DNA of 64,000 nt, taken from Lewinellaceae bacterium SD302 (GTDB lineage: Bacteria > Bacteroidota > Bacteroidia > Chitinophagales > Saprospiraceae). Location of the stretch: the NCBI GenBank assembly GCA_002591745.1, contig PDLQ01000003.1:186001-250000 (forward strand). The letters run 5' to 3'. Below, piece after piece: positions 2,191 to 63,443 of the stretch. How positions within the stretch are numbered: position 1 is the stretch's first letter; each line of letters begins with the position of its first letter. The translations under genes and the position numbers were made by a program. Under the pieces are notes generated by a model. That model was not told where the DNA came from. It saw only the letters and a program-made list of their open reading frames with translations, and did not search any database.

Positions 2191-3087
2191 TTATCGCCTG
2201 ATTCGCCGCAGTCCTTGCCTCCTCAGTATTGTCCGTTCAGTAGCGATATAAATGAATTCTTCGTTGTAAAAATCAATGGCTTCGTACTGTACCGGCTTAG
2301 CCCAGCTTAGATTTCGTCTTTCAGCCCGCCCCCGGAAATATTGGCTGGCAGGATAGTCTCTAATAACGATCAGCGAGCTGGAAACGAAGGGAATAATGCC
2401 CAGAATACGCTGGTAGTTGTAGGTAACCAACGCCAGTTCGTTACGCTCTTTATCCAATGCCGCTCCGGTGATCACCCGCCGGGGCAGGTAGAGACTGTCG
2501 ATGAGTTCGGCCACGTAGGTGCCGGCCGCGTCCGGGAGACTAAAGTGGTAGGCCCAATAGGCTTTACGGCGGCCGGGCAGTGCTTTCGTGAACAGGTGAA
2601 GTTTACCGTCTTCTGGCGAGTGGATCAGGGCTTCGCAGTCATAATTGCCGATACTTAACCGACCACCACCATCTTGGTCCGGGTAAGTAAAATTGATGGT
2701 ATCGACCTGTCCGGTAAGGGGAGCATAGCGGTAGATCGTCTGTTCCTGGCGAAGGCCGCGGTTGTTGCCGGTATCAGCAATATAAAAGTGGCCGTTTTCG
2801 TCTCTGGCCAGGGATTCCCAGTCGGCAGCAGCAGCCGGCAGAGCGGTCGTTGTCGTCTGGCTGGCTTCGGGGTTGAAAGCGTATAGATTGGGGCCATCAC
2901 CGCTATCATTATGCAGATAAAAAATGTTGCTGTCCCGATTGATAACCAGCCCCGATGCTTCGCTGAGTTCGGCGGGTAATTTCATTTTCCGGGGTGGGAG
3001 GTTCGGACTGGCACAGGAGCAGAGTTGGCTTACCAGGAAAAGCGGGATAAGCCGGTACGACATTAGCATGGCTACTTTGTTAGTCAT
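2191..3087 (-). CDS. Putative lipoprotein, beta-propeller-like, unknown function
   Basis: The frame opens at 3087, but a start at Met8 or Met10 (MLMSYRLIPLFL...) fits better. That start gives a short signal peptide followed by LCSC, an acceptable lipobox. The rest resembles six-bladed beta-propeller proteins (repeated SGLVINRDSN, HNDSGDGPNLYAF, YIADTGNN, EALIHSPEDGKLHLF segments), compatible with an extracytoplasmic binding or structural role. No catalytic motif is recognised. The upstream part of the frame is made by a copy of the dispersed GCTACTTTG motif (3071-3079), another reason to prefer the later start. Confidence 0.7.
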   Translation of the reverse strand: MTNKVAMLMSYRLIPLFLVSQLCSCASPNLPPRKMKLPAELSEASGLVINRDSNIFYLHNDSGDGPNLYAFNPEASQTTTTALPAAAADWESLARDENGHFYIADTGNNRGLRQEQTIYRYAPLTGQVDTINFTYPDQDGGGRLSIGNYDCEALIHSPEDGKLHLFTKALPGRRKAYWAYHFSLPDAAGTYVAELIDSLYLPRRVITGAALDKERNELALVTYNYQRILGIIPFVSSSLIVIRDYPASQYFRGRAERRNLSWAKPVQYEAIDFYNEEFIYIATERTILRRQGLRRIRR

Positions 3088-3165
3088 AATACGTACAAAA
3101 TTTAGTGGCTAATCGGACTTGCTTGCCAATATTCAGTAACTTACTCACAAAGATGCAATTCTAAG

Positions 3166-3987
3166 ATGAACAAGAAATACACAACCTACGGCGTCATCGG
3201 TTTTATACTGCTGCTGGCCATTATAATTTTCAGTAACGCGACTTTCGTGACCATTGAGTCCGGCGAACGGGGCGTACTGTTCCGCACCTTCACCGGGGGG
3301 CTGGACAAAGAAAATATTTATCAGCCTGGTTTCCACGTCGTAGCACCGTGGAACACAATGTACATCTATGAGGTAAGGGAAAATCAACTTGAGGAAGAAA
3401 TGGAGGTCCTGAGTAGTAACGGACTGAACATTAAGGTAGACGTCACCGCCCGGATTCGCCCCCGTTACGATAAAATAGGTGAGCTGCACGAAACCTTCGG
3501 CCGCGATTATATGGAACGACTGGTACGTCCCGAGGTCCGCTCGGCAGTGCGCCAGATCATCGGTAAATTTACGCCGGAAGAACTCTACTCCACCAAGCGT
3601 GACGAGGTACAGACCCTCATCACCGAAGAGCTGAGCAACACCTTGCAGAATAATTACATTGATCTGCGTGCCATCCTGATCCGCGACATTGAATTACCCG
3701 ACAAGGTTCGTACTGCCATTGAAGAAAAACTGGAGGCTGAGCAGGGCTCCCTTAAGTACGAATACATCCTCACCCGCGAGCGGCAGGAAGCCGAGCGACG
3801 CCTGATCGAAGCCGAAGCAAAAGCCGCCGCCAACCGGGTCCTCTCCGCCAGTTTGAGCGACAAGATCCTGCAGGATAAAGGCATTGAAGCTACGCTGGAA
3901 TTGTCCAAATCTCCGAACAGCAAAGTGATCGTTGTCGGTGGTAGTGACAATGGTGGATTACCACTGATCCTGGGTGGCGGAAACTAA
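3166..3987 (+). CDS. Prohibitin / SPFH (band 7) family membrane protein
   Basis: This 273-residue protein has one N-terminal membrane helix (residues about 8-25), then an SPFH domain typical of prohibitins: ESGERGVLFRTFTGG, YQPGFHVVAPW, RPRYDKIGELHE. A long helical stretch rich in E, A and R follows (about residues 175-230). Prohibitins form large ring assemblies in the membrane and scaffold proteases and other complexes. The C-terminus is Gly-rich. It stands alone on the plus strand and is followed by an AT-rich inverted repeat. Confidence 0.9.
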   Translation: MNKKYTTYGVIGFILLLAIIIFSNATFVTIESGERGVLFRTFTGGLDKENIYQPGFHVVAPWNTMYIYEVRENQLEEEMEVLSSNGLNIKVDVTARIRPRYDKIGELHETFGRDYMERLVRPEVRSAVRQIIGKFTPEELYSTKRDEVQTLITEELSNTLQNNYIDLRAILIRDIELPDKVRTAIEEKLEAEQGSLKYEYILTRERQEAERRLIEAEAKAAANRVLSASLSDKILQDKGIEATLELSKSPNSKVIVVGGSDNGGLPLILGGGN

Positions 3988-4016
3988 ATTTCAAAAATAA
4001 TTGAAAATTTTGAAAT
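3988..4016. terminator. AT-rich inverted repeat after prohibitin gene
   Basis: ATTTCAAAA (3988-3996) pairs with TTTTGAAAT (4008-4016) directly after the prohibitin stop codon. All pairs but the two C-G pairs are A-T, so the stem is weak. It is a possible terminator or simply AT-rich spacer. Confidence 0.35.
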
Positions 4017-4055
4017 CAAATACTTGTTCCCGTCGTTCTACGTGAAACGGCTGGC

Positions 4056-4637
4056 ATGAAATTGCTTTTGAAACGACCTACTGAGGATGATCTAATTGAC
4101 TTTGCGCTCGCCCAGGCGAAATTACCGCTTAGCTATAAGGAAGTTGGACGAGCTGACTCGACGGTCTTCCCTCTCGGGTATGACCACGATAGAAATGAAC
4201 GCGAGCTTGGTCGGGGAGAAGCGGCTTTCAAAGCCGTCAGATCCGCTATTCAGGCATACGATCATTTTCCCCGAAGCTGGGCCTTTGCCCGGCCGCTTAC
4301 TCTAATTCCTCCCACCGCCGGCCAGGATGTGGCCGTCGCATTCCAGCAATTAGGCCTTTGGTGGCTCAACGGCAGCCGGGTAATCGAGGTAATCGACCAA
4401 CCGGGCTTTTACGGCTTCAGCTACGGTACGCTCATCAGCCACGTTGAGCGAGGGGAGGAACTTTTCTACGTACGTATGGACGAAAACGGGCGCGTTTTTT
4501 ACGGCATCAACGCTTACAGCCTTCCACGTTTCTGGGGCGCTAAGCTATTGAAGCCGTACGCCCGGTGGCAGCAGCGGCGCTTTGTGAACGACAGCATTTC
4601 ACGCATGCTGAAAATTGCGCGAGCTCATGGAAAATAG
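4056..4637 (+). CDS. DUF1990 (UPF0548) family protein
   Basis: This 193-residue protein begins LLLKRPTEDDLIDF and contains SYKEVGRA, RELGRGEAAFKAVRSAI and GFSYGTLISHVERGEELF, the pattern of DUF1990. Biochemical function is not established for this family. The gene overlaps the following YndJ-like membrane protein, so the two are probably co-translated. The same pairing is known from Bacillus and other bacteria. Confidence 0.8.
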   Translation: MKLLLKRPTEDDLIDFALAQAKLPLSYKEVGRADSTVFPLGYDHDRNERELGRGEAAFKAVRSAIQAYDHFPRSWAFARPLTLIPPTAGQDVAVAFQQLGLWWLNGSRVIEVIDQPGFYGFSYGTLISHVERGEELFYVRMDENGRVFYGINAYSLPRFWGAKLLKPYARWQQRRFVNDSISRMLKIARAHGK

Positions 4638-5502
4638 GTTGCTTTATCCTGCCCTCACCGGCCTGCTTGGCTGGCTGATCCTGATCCTGATTTTCTGGCC
4701 GCCCAGTCCGCTTCACCTGGATTACGTACGCCTGATCCTCGTGGCCGCTCCTTTGGCCATCGTTCCCCTTTGTCTGGCAGCGGGAGCGCGCAGCATCAAC
4801 CCTTGGCTGACTTTGGCCCTGGCCTTTCCCTTCGCCCTCGGCATGCTGATTCCCCCCGGTTGGTTCGGCACGTTGCTCGTTCTTCCCTGGTTGGCCTTTA
4901 GCCTTTGGCTTACTTATCAGGCGCTCAAAAAATCGGCCTTCAGTTTGAGTCTTGCCACGATTCGCTCTATCGCTCCACCGGTTTTTCTCTGCGTAGCCGC
5001 CTGCTGGGCTTTGGCCGACCGGGCCGAATTAAACCCCATGGGCTTCGGGCCGGACATCACCCTGCTCACCGCCGTCCACTTCCACTACGCCGGTTTCACG
5101 TTGGCCTGGCTGGTCGGCCGCATCCGTGGTCCGCGTTGGATGCAGTGGGGCATCCTGGGCGGCGTGGCCCTGGTGGCCGTGGGCATCACCGCCTCCCAGT
5201 ACGACTTGCCGGCTTGGGTAGAAGTGGCTTCCGTCAGCTTACTGGCAGTTTGCGCGCTGATTTTTTCCACCAGAATTATTCGATTGGGTATTAGCGAAAA
5301 ACGCTGGCTACTGGTCTCCGGCGGCCTCGCGCTGGGGGCGGGGATGCTGCTGGCACTCTGCTACGGCTGGCGCTATTATTTCCCGATTCCAGCTTTGAAT
5401 ATTCCGGTGATGTATGCACTGCACGGGAGTCTGAATTCTCTGGTTTTTGCACTACCGGTAGTGTGGTCCGAAGCCTTTTTTATTCGCGAACTGCCAAAGT
5501 AG
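4627..5502 (+). CDS. YndJ-like multi-span membrane protein
   Basis: The frame is open from a TTG at 4615, but ATG at 4627 (MENRLLYPAL) is the likelier start; it overlaps the DUF1990 gene by 11 bp. About eight hydrophobic helices cover nearly the whole 291 residues, with little soluble sequence. YndJ-like proteins are annotated as putative transporters, and their substrate is unknown. The last eight codons (FIRELPK-stop) lie inside a 49-bp repeat identical in 46 positions to the 3' end of comF, so the C-terminus may have been rebuilt by recombination. Confidence 0.65.
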   Translation: MENRLLYPALTGLLGWLILILIFWPPSPLHLDYVRLILVAAPLAIVPLCLAAGARSINPWLTLALAFPFALGMLIPPGWFGTLLVLPWLAFSLWLTYQALKKSAFSLSLATIRSIAPPVFLCVAACWALADRAELNPMGFGPDITLLTAVHFHYAGFTLAWLVGRIRGPRWMQWGILGGVALVAVGITASQYDLPAWVEVASVSLLAVCALIFSTRIIRLGISEKRWLLVSGGLALGAGMLLALCYGWRYYFPIPALNIPVMYALHGSLNSLVFALPVVWSEAFFIRELPK

Positions 5503-5527
5503 CAAGGCTGATGATGACCCGAGGGTA
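5479..5527 (+). repeat. Left 49-bp direct repeat (comF 3'-end remnant)
   Basis: It is identical to 12811-12859 at 46 of 49 positions (mismatches at 5489, 5506 and 5522). In the right copy this is the end of comF. Read on the minus strand the left copy still encodes YPRVIISLATLAVRE-stop. Two of the three differences are synonymous and one is Ile to Leu, so the copy diverged as coding sequence. It contains one copy of the dispersed CAAAGTAGC motif (5495-5503). Confidence 0.9.
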
Positions 5528-5560
5528 AGCGGTTAGTGAATTATCGGCCTATGCGCATAT

Positions 5561-12810: not shown

Positions 12811-12859
12811 TTTATTCGCGGACTGCCAAAGTAGCAATGCTGATGATGACCCGGGGGTA
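12811..12859 (+). repeat. Right 49-bp direct repeat (3' end of intact comF)
   Basis: This copy is the partner of 5479-5527 at an offset of 7332 bp. Here it forms the last 15 codons plus stop of comF. It contains a copy of the dispersed motif (12827-12835). The 7283 bp between the two repeats hold only the two secreted-protein genes and no recognisable integrase. Confidence 0.9.
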
Positions 12860-13537
12860 TTTGGCCAGCAAAGCTTCGGCACAGGCCTCCAGGGTAGCAC
12901 CGGTGGTGAGTACGTCGTCGACGAGCAGTACGTGCTGGTCATTCAGGTCAGTGGCCCCGGCGCTAAAAGTTTCTTCCACGTTCGTGAATCGCTCTTCTTT
13001 GCCTTTTTTGGTCTGAGAGACTTCGAAGGTATTGCGCTTCAGGGCTTTTTTCAATACGGCTACGTTCATACTTTCCGCCAGCCCGGTAGCGATCTTTTCC
13101 GCTTGGTTGTAGCCTCGTTGCCGGAAGCGACTCGGATGAAGTGGAACGGGAATGATCCCCGCCAAATCTTTTAACACATCTACTTCCCTTAATTCTTGGC
13201 CGTAAAGGCGACCGAGGCCGACGGCGATATCGGACCGCTTTTGATACTTGAACCCGACGATCATCCGCTGGGTAAGGGAACCACTCCGATAGTATAGCAT
13301 TGAAGCGCCGAAGCGCAGCCTTAGCCGGCCGGCAAACTTGTCCGTAACCGGATTTTCCACCAATTCGTGTAAATTGGTGAAGGGCAATTCCGCCGTACAG
13401 GCCAGGCAGAGATATTGGTCGGAGAGGTTACCGGACAGGCTACGGTCGCAGCCAGGACAAAGCTGAGGATACAGCAAGTCGAGTACCCCATTTTTCAGCG
13501 TCCCTAACAGCGACAGGATTCCCGCTCCCGTAGCCAT
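12812..13537 (-). CDS. comF: ComF family phosphoribosyltransferase-like protein
   Basis: The protein has 241 residues. An N-terminal zinc-ribbon-like region carries CPGC and CLAC (about residues 25-50). A phosphoribosyltransferase domain follows, with the PRPP-binding signature LLVDDVLTTGAT near residue 205. ComF proteins act in uptake and processing of transforming DNA in naturally competent bacteria. Its start shares one base with the end of the upstream beta-barrel gene, so the pair is co-transcribed. Its 3' end is duplicated 7.3 kb away. Confidence 0.92.
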   Translation of the reverse strand: MATGAGILSLLGTLKNGVLDLLYPQLCPGCDRSLSGNLSDQYLCLACTAELPFTNLHELVENPVTDKFAGRLRLRFGASMLYYRSGSLTQRMIVGFKYQKRSDIAVGLGRLYGQELREVDVLKDLAGIIPVPLHPSRFRQRGYNQAEKIATGLAESMNVAVLKKALKRNTFEVSQTKKGKEERFTNVEETFSAGATDLNDQHVLLVDDVLTTGATLEACAEALLAKYPRVIISIATLAVRE

Positions 13538-16347: not shown

Positions 16348-16920
16348 ATGCGTCGCTGGCTTTTACCTTTTCTCCTTTTACCGGCATTGCTACTTTGGCA
16401 GCCCAAAAATCAATTATTCGCTCAGCTGGAAGGTTATGCGGAAATCGCCATCCTGGGAGTCGACGATGAAGTGGCCACCGACGGCACCGCAGCCTTTGCC
16501 GGCAAAACCGGCTATGGCCTGGGCCTCGATCTGCTCTACGGCAAGAGCAGGATTTCCCCCTTGCTAGGGCTGCACTTACAAACCTTCAATTACGATGCCG
16601 ACGCTCCCGGAGTCGGCAATCAGCGTTTGTGGCACCTTATGGTTCCGGTGGGCCTGGCCTACCACGTTGCCCCACGCACCTATAGTTTTAACCTGATGTT
16701 TACCGCTGCAGTGGCTCCTTATTTCGGCATGGATGACCCAACTGAGGACAATCGTATTGTCAGTGAACGCAATCTGCCGCTGAGTACCCGTTTCGGTCTC
16801 ACGGCCACCCTGGATTACCTCTACCTGGGCACCAAGTTTCACGGATTCCCGGACGGTCGATTCGGCGGGACGAATGAATGGTCCTGGGCCGGCAGCTTTT
16901 TGGTTGGCGTGCGTTTTTAG
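16348..16920 (+). CDS. Putative exported beta-barrel-like protein, unknown function
   Basis: A TTG at 16327 opens the frame, but the ATG at 16348 (MRRWLLPFLLLPALLLW) gives a normal signal peptide ending near QLFAQ. The remaining ~160 residues alternate hydrophobic and polar strands (GYGLGLDLLYG, HLMVPVGLAYHV, SWAGSFLVGVRF) and end in Phe, like small outer-membrane barrels. The stop overlaps the convergent downstream gene by 4 bp. A copy of the dispersed motif (16389-16397) lies in the signal-peptide codons. Confidence 0.65.
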   Translation: MRRWLLPFLLLPALLLWQPKNQLFAQLEGYAEIAILGVDDEVATDGTAAFAGKTGYGLGLDLLYGKSRISPLLGLHLQTFNYDADAPGVGNQRLWHLMVPVGLAYHVAPRTYSFNLMFTAAVAPYFGMDDPTEDNRIVSERNLPLSTRFGLTATLDYLYLGTKFHGFPDGRFGGTNEWSWAGSFLVGVRF

Positions 16921-17756: not shown

Positions 17757-17810
17757 TAATTAGACTAACAAAGTAGCAATGTTCCTGTTGCAAAATCAGC
17801 CTTGATATTT

Positions 17811-25994: not shown

Positions 25995-27626
25995 CTAGCC
26001 CAACAGATTGTATAGGATTTGTACAAACAGAATCTTCCCAATCAGCACCACCGGCAGCACACGGGTATAACCGATCGTCGGGTATTTATTGCCGGCCTGC
26101 TCGATGGCAAAATCCAGTACGGCGGGTTGGCTGCCCACCATTCCTCCCAGAAAGCTGAAGGGAATCCGGAGAAGTTTATAGCCGACTAGCAAAGTAGCAA
26201 TGGTAGAGATAACCGCGATGATCGTGCCTGCAACGAACAATTTCCATCCCAGATCGGTGGCCACGGTCTGAAAAAAGGTCTGGCCGGAGCGGATACCGAT
26301 GCCCGCCAGTAAAAGGATAAGCCCGAATTGTCGCAAGGTCAGGTTGGCTCCGTAGGGTAAGGTCCAGACGATCGGGCCGGTACGTCGCAATTGGCCCAGA
26401 ATGAGGGCAATGATCAGGGGCCCTCCGGCGAAACCCAGGTTGAAGTTATAGCCGCCCGGTAGTGAGATGTTTACCATGCCCAGCATCAGCCCGAGCGTCA
26501 TGCCCAGGCCGAAGGAAAGCAGATTGACCTTGGAGAGGCTTTCGTAGCTATTGCCGAAAATTTTGAAGAGTTCCGGCAAGTCTTCCCGTTTGGCAACCAG
26601 CAAAATGCGGTCACCCAGTTCCAGGGTGGTGTCGGCATTGGCCAATACGTCCATGTCACCACGCTGTACCCGGGTGATGACCAGGCTGAAGCGCTCGGCA
26701 AGGTTGAGAGAAGCAATGGTTTTGCCGGCAATCTGACTATTGGAGATGAACAGCCGGCGAACGTCGTAGATCGAACGATCGTAAGTGATCTGATCTTCTG
26801 CGGGCTCTCCGATCAGGGGTTCTAGTTCGGCCAGCGTCTGAGCATTGCCGATGATCACAAGTTGATCGCCAGCCTCCAGGACCGTATCCCAGTTGGAAAG
26901 AAAAGTATCCCCTCCTCGTTTGATCCGGCCAAATGCGACCCGAAACGGATGGCGGTTATGGAAGGTCCGGATCGTCTCTCCGTAAACCGCAGGCATTGCT
27001 ACTTTGATAGTCCTGCTGATCAGTTTTTCCCCCAAAGGAAAATCCAGTTGAAGTTGCTCCGCCTCCTTGGCGTAATTGATCCTGAAAACCCGCTGGAGGA
27101 GATAGATGGAAAGCATAACGCCCAACACGCCCATGGGGTAGGAAAGCGAGTAACCGACCACGGCCCGTTGGCTCATAGCGGTGAGATTATCTTCGGTCGC
27201 GGTTTTTTGAATGGCATCAAGCAGGCCGGCCAAAGCGGGCGTATTGGTACTTGCCCCGGCGTAGAGTCCGGCGGTGGTAGCGGCGTCAAAACCAAACCAG
27301 AAATGCATTCCGTAGGCCAGCCCCGCCGAGAGCACAATGGTGGACAAAGCGAAGTAAACGTCTCGCCAACCATTCTGGCGGAAACTGGCAAAAAAGGCGG
27401 GGGCGCTACTGAGCCCGACCGTGTAGACAAAGATGGTCAGCCCAAGAAAAATGATCAGTTGGGGCACTGAGAAAAGCGGATCGATGGCCCCGAAAGCCAG
27501 ACCCACGAAAAGTACGGCCGCTACCCCGAGTTTGAAACCCCTGATCCGGATCTCCCCCAAACCATAACCCAGCGCCATGACGCAGAACAAAAGAAGCAGC
27601 GGATTTTGCTGGAAAGTTTCGATCAT
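25995..27626 (-). CDS. AspT/YidE-type putative transporter with two TrkA-C domains
   Basis: The frame opens at 27659, but Met12 (27626, MIETFQQNPLLL) is the more natural start for an N-terminal membrane helix. The 543-residue protein has two membrane halves of about five helices (LLFCVMALGYGLGEIRIRGFKLGV; LGLMLGMVNISLPGG...). They flank two TrkA-C domains near residues 195-370 (FRVAFGRIKRGGDTFLSNWDTVLEAGDQLVIIG). This is the aspartate:alanine antiporter duplication architecture of YidE/YbjL. The substrate is unknown. Confidence 0.88.
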   Translation of the reverse strand: MIETFQQNPLLLLFCVMALGYGLGEIRIRGFKLGVAAVLFVGLAFGAIDPLFSVPQLIIFLGLTIFVYTVGLSSAPAFFASFRQNGWRDVYFALSTIVLSAGLAYGMHFWFGFDAATTAGLYAGASTNTPALAGLLDAIQKTATEDNLTAMSQRAVVGYSLSYPMGVLGVMLSIYLLQRVFRINYAKEAEQLQLDFPLGEKLISRTIKVAMPAVYGETIRTFHNRHPFRVAFGRIKRGGDTFLSNWDTVLEAGDQLVIIGNAQTLAELEPLIGEPAEDQITYDRSIYDVRRLFISNSQIAGKTIASLNLAERFSLVITRVQRGDMDVLANADTTLELGDRILLVAKREDLPELFKIFGNSYESLSKVNLLSFGLGMTLGLMLGMVNISLPGGYNFNLGFAGGPLIIALILGQLRRTGPIVWTLPYGANLTLRQFGLILLLAGIGIRSGQTFFQTVATDLGWKLFVAGTIIAVISTIATLLVGYKLLRIPFSFLGGMVGSQPAVLDFAIEQAGNKYPTIGYTRVLPVVLIGKILFVQILYNLLG

Positions 27627-28002: not shown

Positions 28003-29937
28003 ATGCTGAAACAAATTGCCTTTTTACTATTGTTTTGCCTGAGCTTCTCCCTGCTGGGCCAGCAAACCGCCCGCGAAAAGCTGGAAGAGATCGCCGTGAT
28101 CGAGCAGAAGGTCATGATCCCGATGCGGGACGGTATACGGCTCGCCACCGACGTCTACCGGCCCAAAACCAAGAACAAGGTGCCGGTTATTTTTTCTCGT
28201 ACCCCTTATAACTTCAACAGTTGGGGAGATGGCGAGGAAAGAACCCGTACCTACCAACGTGCCATGCAGGCCGTAGAAAAGGGCTACGCCTACGTCGTAC
28301 AAAATGAGCGCGGCCGCTACTTCAGCGAAGGCGAATGGGACATCCTGGGTGTGCCGCTGACCGACGCCGCCGATGCCTTCACCTGGCTGGCCGAGCAAAA
28401 CTGGAGCAACGGCAACATCGGCCTACTGGGTTGTAGCAGTACCGCCGAATGGCAGATGGCCGCCGCTACCCTGAACCACCCCGCGCTGAAAGCCATTGTT
28501 CCGCAAGGATACGGTGCCGGCGTTGGCCGGATCGGTGACTATTACGAACAAGGCAACTGGTACCGTGGCGGTGCCCAACAGATGCTCTTTACGGCCTGGC
28601 TGTACAGCGTGCAGCACGACCCCATGCGGCCCCGCTTGCCGGAAGGAATTGAAACCGAGGATCTACTGCGCTTACAACGGTTCTACGATATGTCGCCGGA
28701 GTACCCGAAGGTAAAATGGTCCGATGGCCTTGCTACTTTGCCGGTACAAGACATCATCAAGGCCCAGAATGGACCAAAGGGCATCTACGAGGAAATGATC
28801 ACCCGAAAACCCAATGACCCCAAGTGGTACGAAGGTGGACTTTATCACGATGATATGGAACTCTCCGTTCCGGCCTTCTGGTTCACCAGCTGGTATGATG
28901 TGTCCATCAGTCCTAACCTGGCGCTATTTAACCACGTGCGCCAGAATGCTGCCAAAGAGGTACGGGACCAGCAACACCTGGTCATCGCGCCCACCTTGCA
29001 TTGTGCTTACACCAGGGCAACGGATAATACCGTCGTAGGTGAACGCAGCGTGGGCGACGCCCGCCTGAACTATGAGGAGCAAATCTACGCCTGGTTCGAT
29101 CACTACCTGAAAGAAGAGCCGCAGCCGATGGTCAAGAAAATGCCCCGCGTCCAGTACTACACCATGGGCAGTAACAAATGGCAAACGGCCGACGCCTGGC
29201 CACCGGCCAACGCCGAAATGCTGACTTATTACCTCACCAGTGGCGGTAAGGCCAATACCCGCAATGGCGACGGTAAACTGAGCACCACACCACCCGCCAA
29301 GGAGGCTTCTGATGGCTTCGTCTACGACCCCATGAATCCGGTGATGTCCTACGGTGGTAACGTTTGCTGTACGGGCGATGCGGTCAAGGGCGGTGCCTAC
29401 GACCAACAGGAGATGGAGTTGCGCGATGACATCCTGGTCTACACCAGCGAACCACTAAAAGAAGGAATGGAGGTCAGTGGTTTCATCAACAGCACGATTT
29501 ACCTCTCTTCCGATGTTAAGGATACCGACGTAACCCTCAAGTTAATCGACGTCTACCCCGACGGCAAAGCCTACAATTTGGACGAAACCATCCAGCGCGT
29601 CCGCTACCGGGAAGGCTACGACAAAGAGGTATTCATGAAAAAGGGAGAGGTCTACAAAGTAGCATTGACCCCGCTTTCGACTTCGAACTATTTCGCGCCA
29701 GGTCACCGCATCCGCATTGAGATCAGCAGCAGTAATTTCCCCCGTTTTACCCGCAACCTGAATACGGGTGGTAACAACTACGACGAAAGTGAGGGTGTAA
29801 TCGCTAATAACCGCATCCACCATTCTAAGGAATATCCGAGCAGCATTGAGTTGCCCGTGGTCCCCAAGAAAATGGCTGCGGAAACGCCCAAGCGTCCGCG
29901 CCGGGCTAAGCCACAGCTAAAGAATGCTGAGTTTTAG
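28003..29937 (+). CDS. CocE/NonD family hydrolase (X-Pro dipeptidyl-peptidase S15-like)
   Basis: The 644-residue protein has a signal peptide (cleavage near LLGQQ). An S15/CocE alpha/beta-hydrolase domain spans about residues 35-370 ([42 protein letters not shown]). A C-terminal jelly-roll PepX_C domain (about 400-610; [23 protein letters not shown]) follows. The nucleophile region reads [11 protein letters not shown], where most of the family has GxSYxG; His is in [11 protein letters not shown]. It is probably periplasmic or secreted and acts on esters or N-acylated substrates. Confidence 0.9.
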
Positions 29938-31009: not shown

Positions 31010-33367
31010 ATGAAAAAGCTGCTCCTCTCTTTGCTGACCTCAGTGTTAGCTTGTTCCCTTTTTGCCCAAGCCGTTGAAAACTATCAAAAGATCTTGTTGC
31101 CCACGCCGGAAGCAATTCCCCAATTGGCGCAGCATGGCGTAGCTGCCGATCATTTCCACGCTACGGATCAGGGGAAGATAGAGTTAATCGTTTCCGAGGG
31201 GGAGCTGGCCATCATTGACGCTCTGGACATTCAATACGCGGTACTCGTCAACGATATGACAAGTCATTATCGTGAAGTACTGGCCACCGAAAGTTCCGCG
31301 CGTGTCGCCGATTGCGGTCTGGAAAACTTCGACGCCGGGGAGATGGGCGACTACCATTCCTACGCGGATATGATTGCCCACATTACGCAAATGGAAACAG
31401 CGTCTCCGGACCTGGTACACGTCTTTGAAGTCGGCCGCTCAGTGGAGGACCGTCCAATCTATGCTGTTAAGATCTCAGATAACGTCGGCTCTGATGAATC
31501 AGGCAGTGAAGCGGTAGTCTACTACGACGCCCTCACCCACGCCCGCGAGCCGATGGGGCTGGAAACTATTCTTTACTTCCAGTGGTGGCTACTGGAAAAT
31601 TACGGCAGTGATGCCGAGGCCACTTACCTGGTCGACAACCGGGAAATCTTCTTTATCCCGATCGTTAACCCCGACGGCTACGTTTATAACCAGACGACCA
31701 ATCCTAATGGTGGTGGCCTCTGGCGCAAAAACCGCAGCGAACAGGGCAACGATTGTTTCGGGGTGGACCTTAATCGCAACTACGCCGCCGCGTGGAGTGA
31801 CCCCCAGGGCTCTAGCTCAGACCCTTGCTCCAATTTGTATCACGGTCCCTCCGCATTTTCCGAGCCCGAAACCCAGACCGTGCGGAACCTCACCGATTCC
31901 ATCCAGCCAGCCACGGCTTTTTCAAACCATACTTACAGCGATGTATTTCTCTGTGCTAATGGTTTTAACGACGAGCTGGATCGCTTCGACCTCTACGCAG
32001 AATTCGCCTCGGAATTTTCTCCACCAGAGTACCGTGGCTACGGTAACTGGGTAAACATGATCTACTACTACGGAGCCGGCACCACCCACGATTACCTGAA
32101 CAGTGGCGGAACGGTGGCTTATACCCCGGAGATCGGTCACGAATTCTGGGAACCTTCTGCCGTGATCTGCGACCGGATTCAGGAAATGCTGCCCGTCATG
32201 CAGTACCTGGCCTGGGCGGCCGGAGATTTCAGCCGGGTACAGAACGTGGAATTTCCGGACGGCCGGGAACTCATTCAGGGCGAAACATTAAGTTTTAACG
32301 TTCGGATCAAGAACCGGGGCATGACCATGGCTGCAAATGAGGTGACCGTTATCGTCAGTTCGGATCACCCCACTCTGACTCCGGTGACCACCAGTGCGAA
32401 TTACGGCGATCTGGAAGCTCGTTCTTTTGCCACCAACGACAATACTCCCTTCGAATTTCTAGTGACCGAAACTGTTTTGTTGAACGAGCCGGTGGCTATC
32501 AAAGTAGCCGTGTTTCAGGGTGACATGATGACCGACGAGCAAGAGTTTATCCTCTTCGGCGGCAGCAGAGATGTTCTTTTTGCCGATAACGCTGATACGC
32601 TGAACGACAACTGGATCAGTGACGGCAGTGCCGACTGGAGCCGAAGTAACCTGGATGCCGTCTCCGGTGACTTTTCCTACGCCGACTCCCCCGAAAAGGA
32701 ATACGCTCCCGAACTAACGGGCAGCCTTTTCAGGATGTCCTCGGCAAATAATATCGACCTCAGCGAAGCAACGGACCCCTGGTTGGAGTTCAACGCCAAA
32801 TGGTCATTCGATGCCGACAATGATTACGTAGAGCCGGTCATTTCTACCGACGACGGGCAAAGCTGGCAAAACCTGACAGGGATACACACTCAATTACAAA
32901 GTGGCGGGCAAGCTTACATCGATACCGAACACTGGGTAGCGGAACGCATCAGTCTGAACGAATACATCGGGGAACCGGAAGTCGTCTTTGGTTTTCGGAT
33001 CTATAGCGGTTTCAATCGCCAGAGCGATGGTTTTTACTTTGATGATTTCGCCGTCGTTAATTACGCGGAGCAGGATACCATGGTAAGTACAAATAGCACT
33101 GGTCTTCTTGCCCGCAAGCTGGAAATTTTCCCCAATCCCGTTCGGAAACAACTGGAGATTACCAACGGAGATGTCGTCGGGCCGGAAGTAAACATTCGAT
33201 TATTAGACGGTCAGGGCCGTGCGGTAATTAGCCGGGAAGCGATGATGGACCATCCCGACCGTCGTAGCACTCTAGACCTCAGTGGCCTCCCCGTGGGCAT
33301 GTACTATTTGGAGATCAGTAATGGCACAGAGCGAGTTTACCGAAAAGTAATTAAAGGAGTAGATTAG
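31010..33367 (+). CDS. Secreted M14 zinc carboxypeptidase with T9SS sorting domain
   Basis: The frame opens at 30908, but ATG 31010 (MKKLLLSLLTSVLACSLFAQ) gives a proper signal peptide and 785 residues. The M14 domain spans about residues 105-400: zinc ligands HAREPMGLE and the His in FSNHTYSD, substrate-binding DLNRNY, catalytic Glu in YTPEIGHEFW. An Ig-like region and a jelly-roll-like domain (about 515-680) follow. A type A T9SS sorting domain (EIFPNPVRKQLEI ... GMYYLEISNG ... VIKGV) ends it. It should cut C-terminal residues from peptides outside the cell. Confidence 0.94.
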   Translation: MKKLLLSLLTSVLACSLFAQAVENYQKILLPTPEAIPQLAQHGVAADHFHATDQGKIELIVSEGELAIIDALDIQYAVLVNDMTSHYREVLATESSARVADCGLENFDAGEMGDYHSYADMIAHITQMETASPDLVHVFEVGRSVEDRPIYAVKISDNVGSDESGSEAVVYYDALTHAREPMGLETILYFQWWLLENYGSDAEATYLVDNREIFFIPIVNPDGYVYNQTTNPNGGGLWRKNRSEQGNDCFGVDLNRNYAAAWSDPQGSSSDPCSNLYHGPSAFSEPETQTVRNLTDSIQPATAFSNHTYSDVFLCANGFNDELDRFDLYAEFASEFSPPEYRGYGNWVNMIYYYGAGTTHDYLNSGGTVAYTPEIGHEFWEPSAVICDRIQEMLPVMQYLAWAAGDFSRVQNVEFPDGRELIQGETLSFNVRIKNRGMTMAANEVTVIVSSDHPTLTPVTTSANYGDLEARSFATNDNTPFEFLVTETVLLNEPVAIKVAVFQGDMMTDEQEFILFGGSRDVLFADNADTLNDNWISDGSADWSRSNLDAVSGDFSYADSPEKEYAPELTGSLFRMSSANNIDLSEATDPWLEFNAKWSFDADNDYVEPVISTDDGQSWQNLTGIHTQLQSGGQAYIDTEHWVAERISLNEYIGEPEVVFGFRIYSGFNRQSDGFYFDDFAVVNYAEQDTMVSTNSTGLLARKLEIFPNPVRKQLEITNGDVVGPEVNIRLLDGQGRAVISREAMMDHPDRRSTLDLSGLPVGMYYLEISNGTERVYRKVIKGVD

Positions 33368-33434: not shown

Positions 33435-34076
33435 TCAAATCCGCCGCGCCACCGATAACCCATCACGCAATGGCAAGACAACCGTCTCTACCCGCGGGTC
33501 ATTAGCCAGCATACGATTGAATTCATCCAGGGCACGGACGTCGGGTTCTTTATCCTCCGGGTCGACTACCCGCCCGTCCCACAGCACGTTATCGGAGATG
33601 AAGAGGCCACCCGGATTCAGGCGGTCGATCAGTTGGTGGAAATAGTTCGTGTAATTGCGCTTGTCGGCGTCTAAAAAAATGAGGTCGAAGTGGCCGGAGA
33701 GCTGATTCTCGATGTACTCACCAGCTTTGCTACTTTGCAGTCTGAATACCTCCGCGTAGGGAGATGCGTCGAAATATTTTTGGGCGATCCAGGCCACTTC
33801 GGGGTTGCCTTCGATGGTGATCAGTTCGCCGCCGGGGGCAATGCCCTCGGCCAGACAGAGTGCGGAGTAGCCGGTGAAAGTGCCCACTTCTAATATTCTT
33901 TGCGGCCGTAATAATTTACTGAGCAAAGCCAGAATACGTCCCTGTAGATGGCCGCTGATCATCTGTGGCGACAGCGTTTTCAGGTTGGTCTCCCGCACCA
34001 ACAGGTGGAGATATTCGGGAACCGGCCCGCTGAGGGCTTCGGCGTAATCGAAGAGGGGATTCAGGTCATCGCGCAT
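33435..34076 (-). CDS. Class I SAM-dependent O-methyltransferase (catechol OMT-like)
   Basis: The 213-residue protein has SAM motif I ILEVGTFTGYSALCLAEG and the metal-site DLIFLDADKRNYTNYF. SDNVLWDGRVVDPEDKEP is also present. Together these match the bacterial catechol/caffeoyl-CoA O-methyltransferase-like family (Mg-dependent). The natural substrate is unknown. Its start overlaps the stop of the thioredoxin gene by 11 bp, suggesting an operon with the two genes upstream. Confidence 0.9.
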   Translation of the reverse strand: MRDDLNPLFDYAEALSGPVPEYLHLLVRETNLKTLSPQMISGHLQGRILALLSKLLRPQRILEVGTFTGYSALCLAEGIAPGGELITIEGNPEVAWIAQKYFDASPYAEVFRLQSSKAGEYIENQLSGHFDLIFLDADKRNYTNYFHQLIDRLNPGGLFISDNVLWDGRVVDPEDKEPDVRALDEFNRMLANDPRVETVVLPLRDGLSVARRI

Positions 34077-34999: not shown

Positions 35000-36028
35000 T
35001 TACTTCAGTCGCATACTGGTGCTACCGGCGAGGTAGCCTTTGTTATACAACTCGATGGTGTAGTCACCACTGGTGTAGGTATATCCTGGCTCGTTCCACT
35101 CGGCACAAAGGTTTTTGGTACCGCCATCGAAATCGAAGTAGACAGGCTTGGTGTAAGGGATCATATCACCGTTTTCCTCGCTTTTGAGGTTGCCACTGCC
35201 CTGGGCGTCCAGACTGATGGTAGCACCACTCGGGTCGATCACCCGGAGGTAGTAGACTTCCTCACCGGCTTCGGCTACTTTGTTTTCCAGGGTACTGAAG
35301 CATACGTAAAGGCGGTCGACGTTCTTGGCGGAGTTACGGTCAACGAATTTTCCACTGTTGCGCTGCTTTTGGCCTACGGCGGAAATGCTGTTTACGGCAA
35401 TAACACTACCGGCGGTCACTTTACGGCTCAGCTGTTCATTTACGTTCGTCAGTTGATCGCGCTCGCTAACCAATACAGCTTTAGTGGCGTTGAGCTCCTC
35501 GTTTTCCATTTGACTGGTTTGGAGGTTGGTGTTCAACTCGTCGCGTTCGGTAGTCAGCTGACGATTGTTCTCGGTCAGCATCGCGTTCTCCTCACGCAGC
35601 GTATTCAACTCGGCGATGTAGCTGTCGGCCTGTTCGCGCAAGGCGGCCAGTTCACGGCGGGCGTTGGACAAGTTCCGGCTGTCACGGGTCAGACCGTCAA
35701 CCTTCTCTTTCATGGTCTTAAGTTCGGCCTTTTGCTGGTCGATCAACGCATTCATTTCTTCGTTGCTGCCGCGCATTTCTTCCAGTTCGGCGATAGCCTC
35801 GTAGTATTGCTGTTCGGCTTGGGCCCGAAACTCGATCGTTTCATTAAGTTCAGTGGTCAACTCGGCGTTGTCGGTGCGTCCGCTCAACCAGCCGTAGGTA
35901 GTGAAGGCCAGTAGTGCAGCCAGGGCAACAATAGCCACCGTCATAATGGTAGACTTGGTGTTGTCCTTTTTGGGTGGGGTGTAATTAGGTTTTGGGTTGG
36001 GGGTTGGATTGCTTTGAATGGTAGCCAT
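35000..36028 (-). CDS. Membrane-anchored coiled-coil protein, unknown function
   Basis: The frame opens at 36103, but ATG 36028 (MATIQSNPTPNPKPNY) is the likely start, giving 342 residues. A Pro-rich cytoplasmic tail and one membrane helix (IMTVAIVALAALLAFTTYGW) come first. A long coiled coil (about residues 50-195, heptads rich in E, L, R and N) follows. The C-terminal globular domain of about 140 residues begins near VIAVNSISAVGQKQ. Similar uncharacterised proteins are common in Bacteroidetes. The position suggests a periplasmic structural role. Confidence 0.75.
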   Translation of the reverse strand: MATIQSNPTPNPKPNYTPPKKDNTKSTIMTVAIVALAALLAFTTYGWLSGRTDNAELTTELNETIEFRAQAEQQYYEAIAELEEMRGSNEEMNALIDQQKAELKTMKEKVDGLTRDSRNLSNARRELAALREQADSYIAELNTLREENAMLTENNRQLTTERDELNTNLQTSQMENEELNATKAVLVSERDQLTNVNEQLSRKVTAGSVIAVNSISAVGQKQRNSGKFVDRNSAKNVDRLYVCFSTLENKVAEAGEEVYYLRVIDPSGATISLDAQGSGNLKSEENGDMIPYTKPVYFDFDGGTKNLCAEWNEPGYTYTSGDYTIELYNKGYLAGSTSMRLK

Positions 36029-36580: not shown

Positions 36581-36885
36581 ATTTGATTTTTGAACTTCAA
36601 AGTAGCAAAGTTTGGCGGGGAAGACGTCGATTCCAAGGGACGCTGCATGAATAAATTACCGTTTCAGAGCTGGCTATTTTGTTTGCTGGCAAGGCGGCCG
36701 AAGCCGATTATACCAAATGTTTAAGGCCCCTACCCCAAATACCGCATGACTACATAAGGCTTTGGGCAACGATGGCAGGGGGCAAAAGAGTCGCTCTAAA
36801 ACTGGTAAGTTATTTTTACGGCGTTCCTACATTACCAGGTGATAAGCACCGGCAATCTGGCTTCAACAACGGCGCAGCTTTTAAT
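36581..36885. other. Intergenic region of 305 bp
   Basis: It contains one dispersed-motif copy (36598-36606) near the MazG-like gene. The rest has no convincing coding sequence, hairpin or promoter. A short plus-strand open frame (36679-36912) lacks family features and overlaps the lactonase 3' end, so I do not call it a gene. Confidence 0.5.
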
Positions 36886-41712: not shown

Positions 41713-42094
41713 AATTTTATGGCTGGCAAAGTAGCAGTGTTTATTGGTCACCGATTTGCGGTCAGAAACAGCGCGATCTCCCGGTAGAGGACCTTATCGT
41801 AAGCTGAACGGTGGCTAAGCCGGCAGTAACAAATATGCGATCTCAGTACATCGTTATAATGAAAAGGAAATTAGGACTCAGTAACTAATGGTTACCTTCT
41901 GATTGATTACACCGATCAAAGTTCTCCTGCGTCTGCTGGCTGGGCCACTTCTCTGCATTGCTACTTTGCCAGCCAAAATTCCAATGATTATTAGTTAGCG
42001 CCAGGGATTTGAAGCCATAATAAAACTGAGTACCTTTGCGCCCTAGCCGTTTCCAAACCGGAGACCAAGCCTGTAACTTGAAAAGCTAACCACT
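41713..42094. other. Intergenic region of 382 bp with an outward-facing pair of dispersed motifs
   Basis: CAAAGTAGC at 41727-41735 and GCTACTTTG at 41960-41968 bracket about 225 bp containing AACAGCGCGATCT, a word related to sequences in two other intergenic regions (48468-48648 and 54414-54752). The trhO promoter lies at the right end. I see no ORF. Confidence 0.6.
42009..42038 (+). promoter_or_regulatory. Promoter of trhO (TTG-N19-TACCTTTG)
   Basis: TTG at 42009-42011 is followed after 19 bp by TACCTTTG at 42031-42038, an exact match to the Bacteroidetes -33/-7 consensus with standard spacing. The GTG start is 57 bp downstream. Confidence 0.75.
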
Positions 42095-48467: not shown

Positions 48468-48648
48468 GGGAGATACGGGATTACGGCAGCCTTGCTACTT
48501 TGAAGTCAAAAGAGGTAACAAATATTAGACAATTAGAACTAATCGCATATCAAAACAGCGGTCTGACAGCGTAGCGATCTAGCATTTTCATTTAATAACT
48601 AAGCGCTCTTTTCTGACTAACTAAGTAGCAGTGTTTACTGCAGAGCGC
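48468..48648. repeat. Intergenic element with inward-facing dispersed motifs
   Basis: GCTACTTTGAAGTCAA at 48494-48509 and CTAAGTAGCAGTG at 48621-48633 (one base off the consensus) bracket about 110 bp. The interior contains ACAGCGGTCT and GACAGCGTAGCGATCTAG. Closely related words in the same order occur at 54440-54634. It resembles a small non-autonomous element with terminal inverted repeats, but could be paired regulatory sites. Confidence 0.55.
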
Positions 48649-54413: not shown

Positions 54414-54752
54414 TAGTTTTTAGTGTGGGTGAAAACTTTGCTACTTTGAAGTCAACCAGAAAGATGGAGATTAGAGATTGGATATTAGACTGCCACTGCT
54501 CATGCCAAGTGATTCACAATCGTAAATTGCTCTTTTCAATAGTGCAGCGGTCCAATTCCTGACCTCTAACAGCGCAGCGATCCAGTGTCTAACGTCTTAG
54601 AGTGAAATGACCTCTTCTTGGCTACCAAAGTAGCAGTGCTCCCGTTAAGCCGGCAGCGATCTCGACCGGTCTGGATCGAAACTCGACGAAAAATACTCCT
54701 GATAAGCTCTTGGGGTTTGCCTAATTTTGCGGCTGAAACATTTTCTATCGCG
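54414..54752. repeat. Intergenic region of 339 bp with inward-facing dispersed motifs
   Basis: GCTACTTTGAAGTCAA at 54440-54455 and CAAAGTAGCAGTG at 54626-54638 bracket about 170 bp. The interior shares words with the element at 48494-48629: CAGCGGTCC, then AACAGCGCAGCGATCCAG. A further CAGCGATCT lies at about 54655, and the E1 promoter box is at the right end. It may be a small repeated element. Confidence 0.55.
54722..54729 (+). promoter_or_regulatory. Candidate -7 box TAATTTTG of the E1 fusion gene
   Basis: It is an exact TAnnTTTG match 23 bp upstream of the ATG at 54753. No TTG is found at the usual -33 distance. Confidence 0.5.
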
Positions 54753-56765: not shown

Positions 56766-56821
56766 ACAAGCAAAACTAAGCGGAGCGAAACGTGTTGTTT
56801 TAATGTACCTACATCTACAAT

Positions 56822-57691: not shown

Positions 57692-57755
57692 TGATAGTAC
57701 TTAGTAGATAGACTGGCAGTAGTCGCTCAAGCGTGTAATACCAGACTATCACTAC
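57690..57755. repeat. Inverted repeat between pirin and ThuA genes
   Basis: AGTGATAGT after the pirin stop pairs with ACTATCACT near 57746-57754, with further partial pairing inside. It lies between convergent genes and shares GATAGTCTGGTA (complement) with the hairpin at 47052-47100. Confidence 0.5.
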
Positions 57756-57766
57756 GCTCAGATTAA

Positions 57767-58531: not shown

Positions 58532-58628
58532 CAGTTATCGTTTGTTTAGATCAATGTACCTTGCAAGATAGTTTACGCCAGTTTATCATCGTACTGGCCA
58601 CATTTCAAATTTATATCCACATTTATTA

Positions 58629-61364: not shown

Positions 61365-61411
61365 TTCGCTAGCGAGTTTCCAGGGTTTCGACTAACTACT
61401 ACCTGGCTGCC

Positions 61412-61433
61412 GAGCGTGTTGCCACCCACGCTC
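61412..61433. terminator. Short hairpin downstream of the helicase gene
   Basis: GAGCGTG (61412-61418) pairs with CACGCTC (61427-61433). No T-run follows, so terminator activity is uncertain. Confidence 0.4.
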
Positions 61434-61658
61434 AATTAACCGGCAAACCATCATGAATACCGAATAAGCGTTCACCGATTTATGGTCGGCATCCGTCCTT
61501 GACCGGTTATTTCGCTTAATGGGTTATAGCAAGGAAAAATCTGATGGTTACCTTTAGCGTTTGAACTCTATCTGATCGTCCGAAAGCAACCATCTATGTC
61601 TCTTCGCCCGTTACTTTGCTACGTTAGCTTCGCTGATCGTCGCTGGTCTTTAACTCCT

Positions 61659-63443
61659 ATGTATTCAATCAGCCCTGCTACTTTGTTAGTCAAGAAACAA
61701 CTATTGCTTAGGCTGCTCCTCGGAGTTGTTAGTCTAAGCCTGTTTTCCACCCTTTTTGCCCAGGGCACCCTTCATCCGGATTTAACGGATGCTTTCACCC
61801 GTGATGATAAAGTGGAAACACTCATCATCTTCCAAAATCAGCAACGCTTTATTCCCGCCGACACCGATGCATTGATCAGCAAGGTGGCCAAGGGGCAGTA
61901 CGTGTTCAATGAATTACGCAAGCTTGCCGGTGAAGATCAACGAGCCGTGAGTAGCTACCTCACTGCTGCTGAAATCGAGTACCGTAGTCTGAGTATCGCC
62001 AATGTGATCGGTACTACGCTCAATGAAAGTCAGGCCAAAAGCGTAGCTGAATTGGCGAACGTAAAAACCCTGATTGTAAATCCCTGGATTCAGCAAGATC
62101 TCGGTTTCGTAGAGCGGGAGCAAGTTCAGGCCCGTCAAATAATCGAATGGGGTGTACAGCAGATCGGTGCACCACAACTATGGGATGAGGGATTTACCGG
62201 TCAGGGCGTGACGGTGGGTGGTCAGGATACCGGCTACGATTATCTACATCCAACGCTATTCGCAAAGTACCGGGGTAACGTGGCGGGCGACACCATCCAC
62301 GATTATAACTGGCACGATGCTATCCACAGCATCAGCCCGCTGAATAACAACGACGATAATCCCTGTGGATTAGACGTGCCCTTCCCTTGCGACGACAACA
62401 ACCACGGCACCCACACCATGGGAACGATGGTGGGCGACGACGGCGCAGGTAACCAGATCGGCGTAGCCCCCGGTGCGAGCTGGATGGCTTGCCGCAATAT
62501 GGAACGCGGCTGGGGTAGCCCTCAGAGTTACCTGGAGTGTTTCGAATGGTTTCTGGCTCCTACGCGGGTTGACGGTAGCGAACCAGATCCGGCCCAAGCT
62601 CCTCACGTAATTGCCAACAGCTGGTCTTGCCCCCTGCAAGAAGGGTGCACCGACGAAACTTACGAACTGTTTGACGTAGCCATCAATAACCTTCGGGCGG
62701 CGGGCGTGGTCGTAGTTACCTCCGCCGGCAACGACGGCTCCGAATGTGAGACGATCAATAAGCCTCCGTCGGTTTTTCCAGGAGCCTACTCTATCGGAGC
62801 ATCCAACGACAGCGACGAAATTGCCAACTTCAGCAGCCGAGGCCCGTCTACTTTCAACGGAGAAACTTATTTACAGCCACAGGTGGTCGCCCCGGGAGTG
62901 AACGTGCGTTCCGCCATTCGCGATGGAGGCTACGCCAGTTTTAACGGTACCAGTATGGCCGGACCTCACGTAGCCGGGGCGGTGGCCGTCTTGATCTCCG
63001 CCCTCCCCGATTTGGCCGGCAATGTTACCGCTATCGAAGAGATATTCCGCCAGTCCGCCGTGCCCTTATTCTCTGATCAGAGCTGTGGCGACTTTCCCGG
63101 CGATGAGCGCCCCAACGCTGTTTATGGTTACGGCCGCATCGACTTGGTAGAAGCCTACGCGCTCGGCCAGGAGATCGTGAGTACACGGGAGATTTTGCTT
63201 GCTGCGGACCGCTTCGAAGTGTTTCCCAATCCGGCCAGCGACTTCGTAACCGTTGTCAAGCGCCACGGTGCTCCGGCTCGGAATTACACGGTGACCGATT
63301 TGAATGGTCGGGTTTTATTAGGACTTCAAAGTAGCAATGCCGGCAATGACCGAATTGAGCTGAAGAGTCTGCCAACGGGTGTCTATTTGTTGCGGATCGA
63401 AACAGCGGATGGAATAGTCGTTCAGAAAGTTGTTAAGCAGTAA
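61659..63443 (+). CDS. Secreted S8 (subtilisin-like) serine protease with T9SS sorting domain
   Basis: The frame opens at 61596. ATG 61659, or a TTG at 61683 (TTG TTA GTC AAG AAA), would each give a signal peptide ending in SLFSTLFAQ. The S8 domain spans about residues 150-500 of the long frame: Asp in GGQDTGYDYLHP, His in NNHGTHTMGTMVGDDG, oxyanion Asn in TSAGNDGS, Ser in FNGTSMAGPHVAGAVA. A type A T9SS domain (EVFPNPASDFVTV ... GVYLLRIETADG ... VVKQ) ends it. The stop overlaps the next gene's ATG. Confidence 0.94.
   Translation: MYSISPATLLVKKQLLLRLLLGVVSLSLFSTLFAQGTLHPDLTDAFTRDDKVETLIIFQNQQRFIPADTDALISKVAKGQYVFNELRKLAGEDQRAVSSYLTAAEIEYRSLSIANVIGTTLNESQAKSVAELANVKTLIVNPWIQQDLGFVEREQVQARQIIEWGVQQIGAPQLWDEGFTGQGVTVGGQDTGYDYLHPTLFAKYRGNVAGDTIHDYNWHDAIHSISPLNNNDDNPCGLDVPFPCDDNNHGTHTMGTMVGDDGAGNQIGVAPGASWMACRNMERGWGSPQSYLECFEWFLAPTRVDGSEPDPAQAPHVIANSWSCPLQEGCTDETYELFDVAINNLRAAGVVVVTSAGNDGSECETINKPPSVFPGAYSIGASNDSDEIANFSSRGPSTFNGETYLQPQVVAPGVNVRSAIRDGGYASFNGTSMAGPHVAGAVAVLISALPDLAGNVTAIEEIFRQSAVPLFSDQSCGDFPGDERPNAVYGYGRIDLVEAYALGQEIVSTREILLAADRFEVFPNPASDFVTVVKRHGAPARNYTVTDLNGRVLLGLQSSNAGNDRIELKSLPTGVYLLRIETADGIVVQKVVKQ

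Follow-up and report, generated by a model that had tools for sequence, protein, structure and literature searches.

The Neisseriaceae and the Pasteurellaceae are named in passages of PMC12616744 as the only families known to possess uptake sequences. As described in parts of PMC1626085, their uptake signal sequences (USS, Pasteurellaceae) and DNA uptake sequences (DUS, Neisseriaceae) show no orientation bias, are regularly spaced, form close opposite pairs, prefer non-coding DNA, occur more often as perfect than as single-mismatch copies, arise by mutation and not by insertion, and exist as dialects in relatives, at a density of about one copy per kb. In the Bacteroidota, Riemerella anatipestifer is transformable without a pilus, and passages of PMC8459023 list ComEC, DprA, ComF, RecA and four further proteins as essential, a DUF5689 protein and an outer-membrane CarboxypepD_reg protein being among these four. 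For R. columbina, passages of PMC7965970 report a preference for DNA of its own species, and the authors left open whether frequent k-mers play a DUS role. Searches of an open-access library on uptake or transformation in Bacteroidota, Saprospir-, Lewinella and Flavobacteri- groups gave no description of a motif such as the one reported here. We analysed a stretch of 64,000 nucleotides from Lewinellaceae bacterium SD302 (contig PDLQ01000003.1, positions 186,001 to 250,000 of the forward strand), hereafter the window, in which the 9-mer GCTACTTTG is found 20 times, and followed this word through the whole genome and through related genomes. We read the motif built around it as most probably a signal for DNA uptake, with a probability of roughly 0.7, and in the preferred form of this reading the system is independent of pili and probably directional. 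An earlier note on this DNA had offered an uptake-type sequence as one of three readings, and it is the one that fits best.

The motif displays all of the hallmarks set out in those parts of PMC1626085 except density. Like the Pasteurellaceae USS described there, it has a 9-bp core with flanking A/T tracts, strand balance, an intergenic preference, more perfect than mismatched copies, close opposite pairs, a point-mutation origin and dialects, of which the USS has two. It is unrelated to the USS in sequence, is less dense, and comes from a genus in which no PilT-type ATPase was found. The DUS, recognised by ComP, likewise has several dialects within one clade (passages of PMC3630211), but it is 10-12 bp long and without flanking motifs (parts of PMC1626085 and PMC3630211), whereas the SD302 site is longer. 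The DUS receptor is moreover a minor pilin of the type IV pilus (T4P; parts of PMC12616744), and no PilT-type ATPase was found in the genus of SD302. With the T4P-free machinery of Riemerella, the SD302 genome shares ComEC and a comF-like gene.

The SD302 genome (5.48 Mb, 147 contigs; labelled G000) contained 1,533 copies of GCTACTTTG, 770 forward and 763 reverse, as compared to 80 copies (43 forward, 37 reverse) of the reversed word used as a control. The density was thus 0.28 per kb over the whole genome, far from background, and the strand balance of 10:10 reported earlier for the window holds genome-wide. The copy number of the USS in Haemophilus influenzae is about 1,500. Similarly, TGCTACTTTG was present 1,344 times in SD302, against 16 for its reversed control. 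No strand polarity was seen in three long contigs (33/39, 57/46 and 39/43 plus/minus copies; origin and terminus unmapped). A 464-kb sample of the genome, window included, held 127 copies, 126 of them with full flanks, and gave the consensus RRCAYTGCTACTTTG, followed by NY or a single base (usually A), AGYC and an A-rich tail. The AG following the core stood in the 1-base class at 35 of the 126 sites, in the 2-base classes at 67 and 13, and in neither at 11; both registers claimed earlier for AGTC or AGCC, one or two bases on, are therefore present. The full motif extends over about 25-45 bp. The same consensus was obtained from 263 copies in about 909 kb, with weak signals reaching about 18 bases on one side and 28 on the other. 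The 10-mer was sharply defined, with 115 perfect and 52 single-mismatch copies, as compared to 3 and 40 for the reversed control. Some copies show GCTA...TAGC, but on inspection, without folding, we gave up the hairpin that this suggests, since its second arm is variable (two Y positions, and the 1-base class).

In the window itself, recount reproduced all 20 coordinates and strands given earlier, 10 on the plus and 10 on the minus strand. Among 100 dinucleotide shuffles of the window the mean was 0.36 and the largest count 2, none reaching 20, in line with the earlier estimate of about 0.5 chance copies in 64 kb. Under a third-order Markov model GCTACTTTG was the most over-represented 9-mer of the window. 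The extended flank noted earlier in seven copies was likewise found, CATTGCTACTTTG being read by 7 of the 20 (12827, 16389, 17769, 26190, 26998, 41960 and 63327). Flank scores, from a weight matrix built on a set that includes the scored window copies, ranged from +6.9 to +20.1 bits in 18 of the 20; the copies at 35274 (-7.9) and 29655 (-1.9) had poor flanks and may be chance occurrences.

We compared SD302 with 20 congeners (21 genomes in the genus set, labelled G000 for SD302 and G001 onwards for congeners and outgroups). None of 59 other genomes (20 of the genus, 16 others of the family, 23 of the order) resembled SD302 in its content of the SD302 word; the highest counts among them were 179 against a control of 66, and 127 against 27. 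TGCTACTTTG did not exceed 56 copies in 297 other genomes of the family. As had been suggested earlier, the search was carried to relatives, and the congeners proved to carry other words. CGCAGGTGCA was present in at least 100 copies, strand-balanced, in 17 of the 20 congeners, the counts being 1,193, 1,134, 1,098, 756, 640, 617, 594, 578, 518, 364, 252, 232, 230, 213, 163, 135, 123, 84, 61 and 28, with controls of 2 to 30. In SD302 it was at background (11 against a control of 11), and in 292 genomes of the family outside the genus it did not exceed 51. The congener lowest in CGCAGGTGCA, G001, had 384 copies of GCGCTCCGCCGC (control 0), and G013 had 255 copies of CCCGCGGCAGCGCC (control 2). 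By eye, the words follow a common plan of T-tract, GGC-like block, core and purine-rich tail; in the orientation of CAAAGTAGC, the SD302 motif reads TTTTGRCTRNCAAAGTAGCARTG and that of G005 reads TTTTGGGCGNGGCCGCAGGTGCAAGG. The G005 word has a T-tract and weak A/G-rich flank signals to about +30. From this architecture the words of SD302 and its congeners appear to be homologous, although the letters alone are no proof. In a two-protein tree of 19 genomes (two with one protein only, midpoint root), SD302 was on the longest branch, a position compatible both with a change of word in this species and with its having diverged before the others.

Twenty kb per congener was too small for the k-mer search, and the words emerged at 60-160 kb. 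Seeded motif refinement in 18 genomes yielded clean motifs for G001, G002, G005, G013 and G014; that for G006 was rough. In G000, G003, G004, G007, G009, G011, G012, G015, G016, G017 and G019 the profiles became codon-periodic or unclear, and G020 gave no motif. Only the five clean motifs were therefore used. The pattern CATTGCTACTTTGN{1,2}AGYCAA had at least five single scattered matches in genome contigs, from which SD302 records were possibly excluded, and one match each in 20 viral contigs; no other enriched organism appeared among the matches listed in either. If a nuclease of defence or DNA processing used the motif to recognise self, the genome would also be marked in a dense, species-specific and strand-balanced way. 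Since such a nuclease would leave the match to the USS/DUS hallmarks unexplained, we consider it very unlikely that the motif is read in this way and not by an uptake receptor.

Other repeats were seen in the congeners. In 120 kb of G019 (loci L069, L128, L129 and L151-L153), a dispersed repeat around GATCCTTCGGGAATTGATCC occurred at 14 separate places; it is longer than the other words of the genus and unlike them. In G006, runs of a ACTCCATGC-like unit ending in CCATGGGCTAA were present at six places in 20 kb (L134, G006:C73:1-20000), and clusters of short tandem units, CTCCCGACTC and CTACCGCCTA, were found in G014 (L064, 6032-6341) and in G019 (L069 and L129).

The copies arise by substitution and not by insertion wherever this could be examined inside genes. 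For the window copies 26190, 26998, 28732 and 29655, codon-level alignments to 17 congeners each, at about 70% DNA identity, were all ungapped at the site, those of the weakly flanked 29655 included. Overall, insertion was seen at 0 of 12 testable intragenic copies, the remaining 49 of 61 having no ortholog in the sequence examined; for 8 of the 12 the comparison was with a single relative each, several at 40-55% identity, and one congener was counted with two loci. One poor alignment among the 12 had a gap in the SD302 protein. Some copies coincide with unusual residues, as at 26998, where SD302 has KVAMP and the relatives mostly have VEHP-like sequences. It had been proposed earlier that the copies are solo ends of a mobile element, and a repetitive extragenic palindrome (REP), a miniature inverted-repeat transposable element (MITE) or another copied element would account for a sharp consensus in many hundreds of copies. 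The ungapped alignments and the 0 of 12 insertions refute this for the testable intragenic copies, and a kept frame preference (22 of 27 sense copies in frame 0) also speaks against it, leaving such an origin hardly credible.

Placement relative to genes was determined in the 464-kb sample with gene calls from a home-made script. Sixty of the 127 sites were intergenic, 6 straddled a gene edge and 61 were inside genes, about half as stated earlier, although intergenic DNA made up 12.7% of the sample. Sites per kb were 0.15 in genes, 0.96 in co-directional gaps, 1.79 in divergent gaps and 0.27 in convergent gaps. Inside genes, one frame (frame 0) held 22 of the 27 sense copies and one frame 24 of the 34 antisense copies. 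The words of the congeners also favoured gaps: 15 of 22 copies were intergenic in G005 (19% intergenic DNA) and 13 of 18 in G001 (15%), with 9 of 24 in G013 (18%) and 6 of 12 in G015 (19%); the other ten genomes sampled gave at most 10 sites each.

The -7 box of Bacteroidota promoters is TAnnTTTG. GCTACTTTG contains TACTTTG, and from the overlap with this box it had been suggested that some copies could double as promoters; 21 of the 30 copies in divergent gaps face the nearer gene. In co-directional gaps, however, 17 copies ran along the genes and 15 against them (counted on the reverse-complement word and turned to the sense of GCTACTTTG), so that no orientation with the gene was seen. Half of the copies lie within genes, the CGCAGGTGCA of the congeners lacks a TAnnTTTG box, and the strong enrichment is confined to SD302. 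The orientation counts, the intragenic half and the congener word refute promoters as a general explanation of the motif, and we regard them as a most improbable one.

The sites were more evenly spaced than random, and strongly so when each orientation was taken separately. In contig C1 (100 sites) the coefficient of variation (CV) of spacing was 0.785 (95% null 0.815-1.182), and over 844 kb it was 0.862 against a 2.5% null bound of 0.879. Among 237 neighbour pairs, 169 were of opposite and 68 of the same orientation (p 4e-11); by distance, opposite to same was 54:2 below 1 kb, 70:27 at 1-4 kb, 23:16 at 4-6 kb and 22:23 beyond. The CV of same-strand spacing was 0.599, as compared to 0.853-1.180 in 500 random placements, and only 3 same-strand gaps were shorter than 1 kb where 34.3 were expected. 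From a site to the nearest following one of opposite orientation, spacing was random in CV (0.918), with an excess below 1 kb (59 against 34.6). When orientations were shuffled on the real positions, same-way neighbours within 4 kb averaged 82 with a minimum of 61 in 5,000 shuffles; the observed number was 33. The sites of each strand thus form a regular lattice of their own, about 6.9 kb apart on average, without mutual exclusion between opposite strands. A similar same-strand exclusion was found in a contiguous 360 kb of G005, where 83 copies of CGCAGGTGC (39/44 by strand) gave 4 same-strand gaps below 2 kb against 16.8 expected (null minimum 9) and a same-strand CV of 0.697 (null minimum 0.735). 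Even spacing of the USS was reported by Karlin et al., as cited in passages of PMC1939737.

The lattice of each strand suggests that the site is read directionally and serves mainly the DNA on one side over a few kilobases. The one-way reader could be a motor of directional uptake; a Chi-like enzyme is less likely. The main rival of an uptake signal is a directional recombination or repair site, Chi-like or other, recognised by an enzyme as it travels on the chromosome, each orientation then requiring a regular supply for itself. Such a reader would select for what was observed, an even spacing specific to orientation and lost beyond about 6 kb. The sites that RecBCD and AddAB read are, like the SD302 motif, frequent, dispersed and oriented, and the abundance found here is of the order of that of Chi in E. 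coli. Known Chi sites are short, 5-8 bp, and read as single strands; in E. coli they are rich in coding DNA and strand-skewed with replication. In contrast, the SD302 motif is 25-45 bp long with a T-tract and weak flanks, is rich in intergenic DNA and balanced between strands without polarity, and the main word of the congeners is at background in SD302. We therefore consider a Chi-like role unlikely. A site at which a DNA-bending or SMC-type protein organises the nucleoid or segregates the chromosome would also account for even spacing and perhaps for the A/G-rich flank signals of the G005 word. FtsK-orienting polar sequences (KOPS) and sites of their type need replichore polarity, which was absent from the three long contigs, and an essential folding site is not expected to differ so much inside one genus; such a role is accordingly quite improbable.

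ComEC (PF03772) was present in 21 of 21 genomes of the genus; competence genes are thus represented by it and by the comF-like gene of the window. In contig C115 of SD302 (G000:C115, L232 2674-7602), a TonB-plug/CarboxypepD_reg protein, whose CarboxypepD_reg and plug matches are below the Pfam cut-offs, is followed by an adjacent protein with three DUF5689 domains, which gave a weak match, below cut-off, to the M949_1556 lipoprotein of NCBIfam and no match in a PDB sequence search. These domain types correspond to those of RA0C_RS04915/RS04920 of Riemerella, only the domains having been compared. Four of 39 other genomes, the outgroups G021, G022, G024 and G039, had plug-protein homologs at E <= 1e-60, each flanked directly by strong DUF5689 matches. 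By domain likeness, this pair may be a lead to a candidate receptor, in SD302 only.

Several observations weigh against an uptake signal. The density of 0.28 per kb is below that of known USS and DUS, about 1 per kb in the parts of PMC1626085 cited above; this figure describes the known cases and is not needed for function. For the 9-mer, 156 single-mismatch copies outnumbered 127 perfect ones. The reversed control gave 136 and 9, so that most one-mismatch 9-mers are background; perfect copies are thus in excess for the 10-mer as it stands and for the 9-mer once this background is considered. Both known families have type IV pilus machinery. PilT-type ATPases, the sole pilus marker searched, were found in 0 of 21 genomes of the genus at E <= 0.001, whereas 13 of 14 control genomes matched, 5 of them over cut-off; uptake would therefore need another machine. 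At the thresholds applied, none of the 20 congeners gave a match to either partner of the plug/DUF5689 pair, the kind of outer-membrane pair implicated in Riemerella transformation, and so the pair cannot serve the whole genus. Three of the 20 congeners had fewer than 100 copies of CGCAGGTGCA, and in G004, G007, G009, G012, G016 and G017 no dispersed word was prominent in 60 kb each, their whole-genome CGCAGGTGCA counts being 61 to 252. The high density in divergent gaps, with most copies facing the nearer gene, is a weak promoter-like trend. The exclusion in G005 was weaker, with 48 opposite and 34 same-orientation neighbours, and among 5,000 shuffles of orientation on the real positions the observed count was reached by 390 for distances under 1 kb, by 9 under 2 kb and by 159 under 4 kb. 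Finally, uptake by H. influenzae is independent of USS orientation according to passages of PMC1939737, whereas the SD302 motif is regular per orientation; the lattice could thus point to another directional process.

The copies of the window are distributed as follows, with flank scores in bits. The plus-strand copy at 3071..3079 (15.6) is in a divergent gap by our gene calls, although the longest open reading frame, 2191-3087, would cover it, and the minus-strand copy at 17769..17777 (17.5) is in a co-directional gap. The copies at 36598..36606 (minus, 13.2) and 48494..48502 (plus, 12.3) are intergenic. Two opposite-facing pairs were found, one intergenic, formed by 41727..41735 (minus, 20.1) and 41960..41968 (plus, 14.9), and one in a divergent gap by our gene calls, formed by 54440..54448 (plus, 8.6) and 54626..54634 (minus, 13.5). 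At gene edges, the copy at 5495..5503 (minus, 6.9) is at the stop of a YndJ-like gene, that at 16389..16397 (plus, 18.3) is at a called gene start, and that at 61677..61685 (plus, 17.6) is at the called start of a subtilase gene, within which a further, antisense copy lies at 63327..63335 (minus, 15.9). A permease gene contains 26190..26198 (minus, 10.9) and, antisense, 26998..27006 (plus, 12.4). An S15 peptidase gene contains 28732..28740 (plus, 10.6) and the weakly flanked 29655..29663 (minus), which may be due to chance. The copies at 32500..32508 (minus, 9.5) and 33729..33737 (plus, 10.3) are within an M14 peptidase gene and an O-methyltransferase gene, respectively, and that at 35274..35282 (plus), within a gene, is probably a chance occurrence.

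The remaining copy, 12827..12835 (minus, 13.1), is within the last codons of the comF-like gene (12812..13537, minus strand), in sense frame 0. This gene encodes a phosphoribosyltransferase of a competence-associated family, with PF00156 over cut-off, the zinc-ribbon PF18912 just under it, and TIGR00201 comF at E 3e-26, under the curated cut-off. The presence of comF noted earlier is thus borne out as a comF-like gene, while its TIGR00201 and PF18912 matches stay below their cut-offs. The copies 5495 and 12827, which end different genes, share a near-identical 5' context, CGGGTCATCATCAGC[CA]TT, and the 3' context GCAGT[TC]CGCGAATAAA; this may reflect local duplication or gene conversion. Elsewhere in the window, positions 7375-12510 encode a 1,711-aa protein with no Pfam match at E <= 0.001; its neighbour at 5561-7378 is a PKD protein that carries a sorting tail of a secretion system. 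Such PF18962 tails were found in three window proteins and speak for a member of the Bacteroidota. No tRNA was found in the window, nor did any Rfam family reach its gathering score there, and an RNA-element reading of the motif was rejected on these grounds.

If the motif is an uptake signal, a putative cell-surface receptor of a naturally transformable species would bind the site of about 25-45 bp in extracellular double-stranded DNA. Fragments bearing it would be imported, made single-stranded, passed through ComEC and recombined. We propose that copies accumulate because uptake favours the very mutations by which a site is created, and the genome would fill with sites through point mutation. 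As the words of sister species differ while being similarly built, the word would mark conspecific DNA, and the dialects would keep sister species apart. If the site is read in one direction, mainly serving the DNA on one side over a few kilobases, selection or drive would build two interleaved, independent lattices, one per strand. Competence, a surface receptor, a bias of uptake and its direction would thus all have to be features of SD302. A more detailed version of this proposal is an independently evolved, pilus-free, directional uptake system outside the two proteobacterial families, in which a receptor-motor reads a site of about 45 bp in one orientation, with one-sided import of a few kb, two strand lattices and dialects, and in which the plug/DUF5689 pair may serve as the surface receptor of SD302; we advance it tentatively, at somewhat less than an even chance.

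If the uptake reading is true, this would be a third, unrelated case of uptake sequences, with several dialects in one genus, and DNA self-tagging would be a trait that arises again and again in evolution and can do without type IV pili. The 21 genomes of the genus would allow a search for the receptor by coevolution, and orientation-specific spacing would be a genomic signature that makes the direction and the reach of uptake testable.

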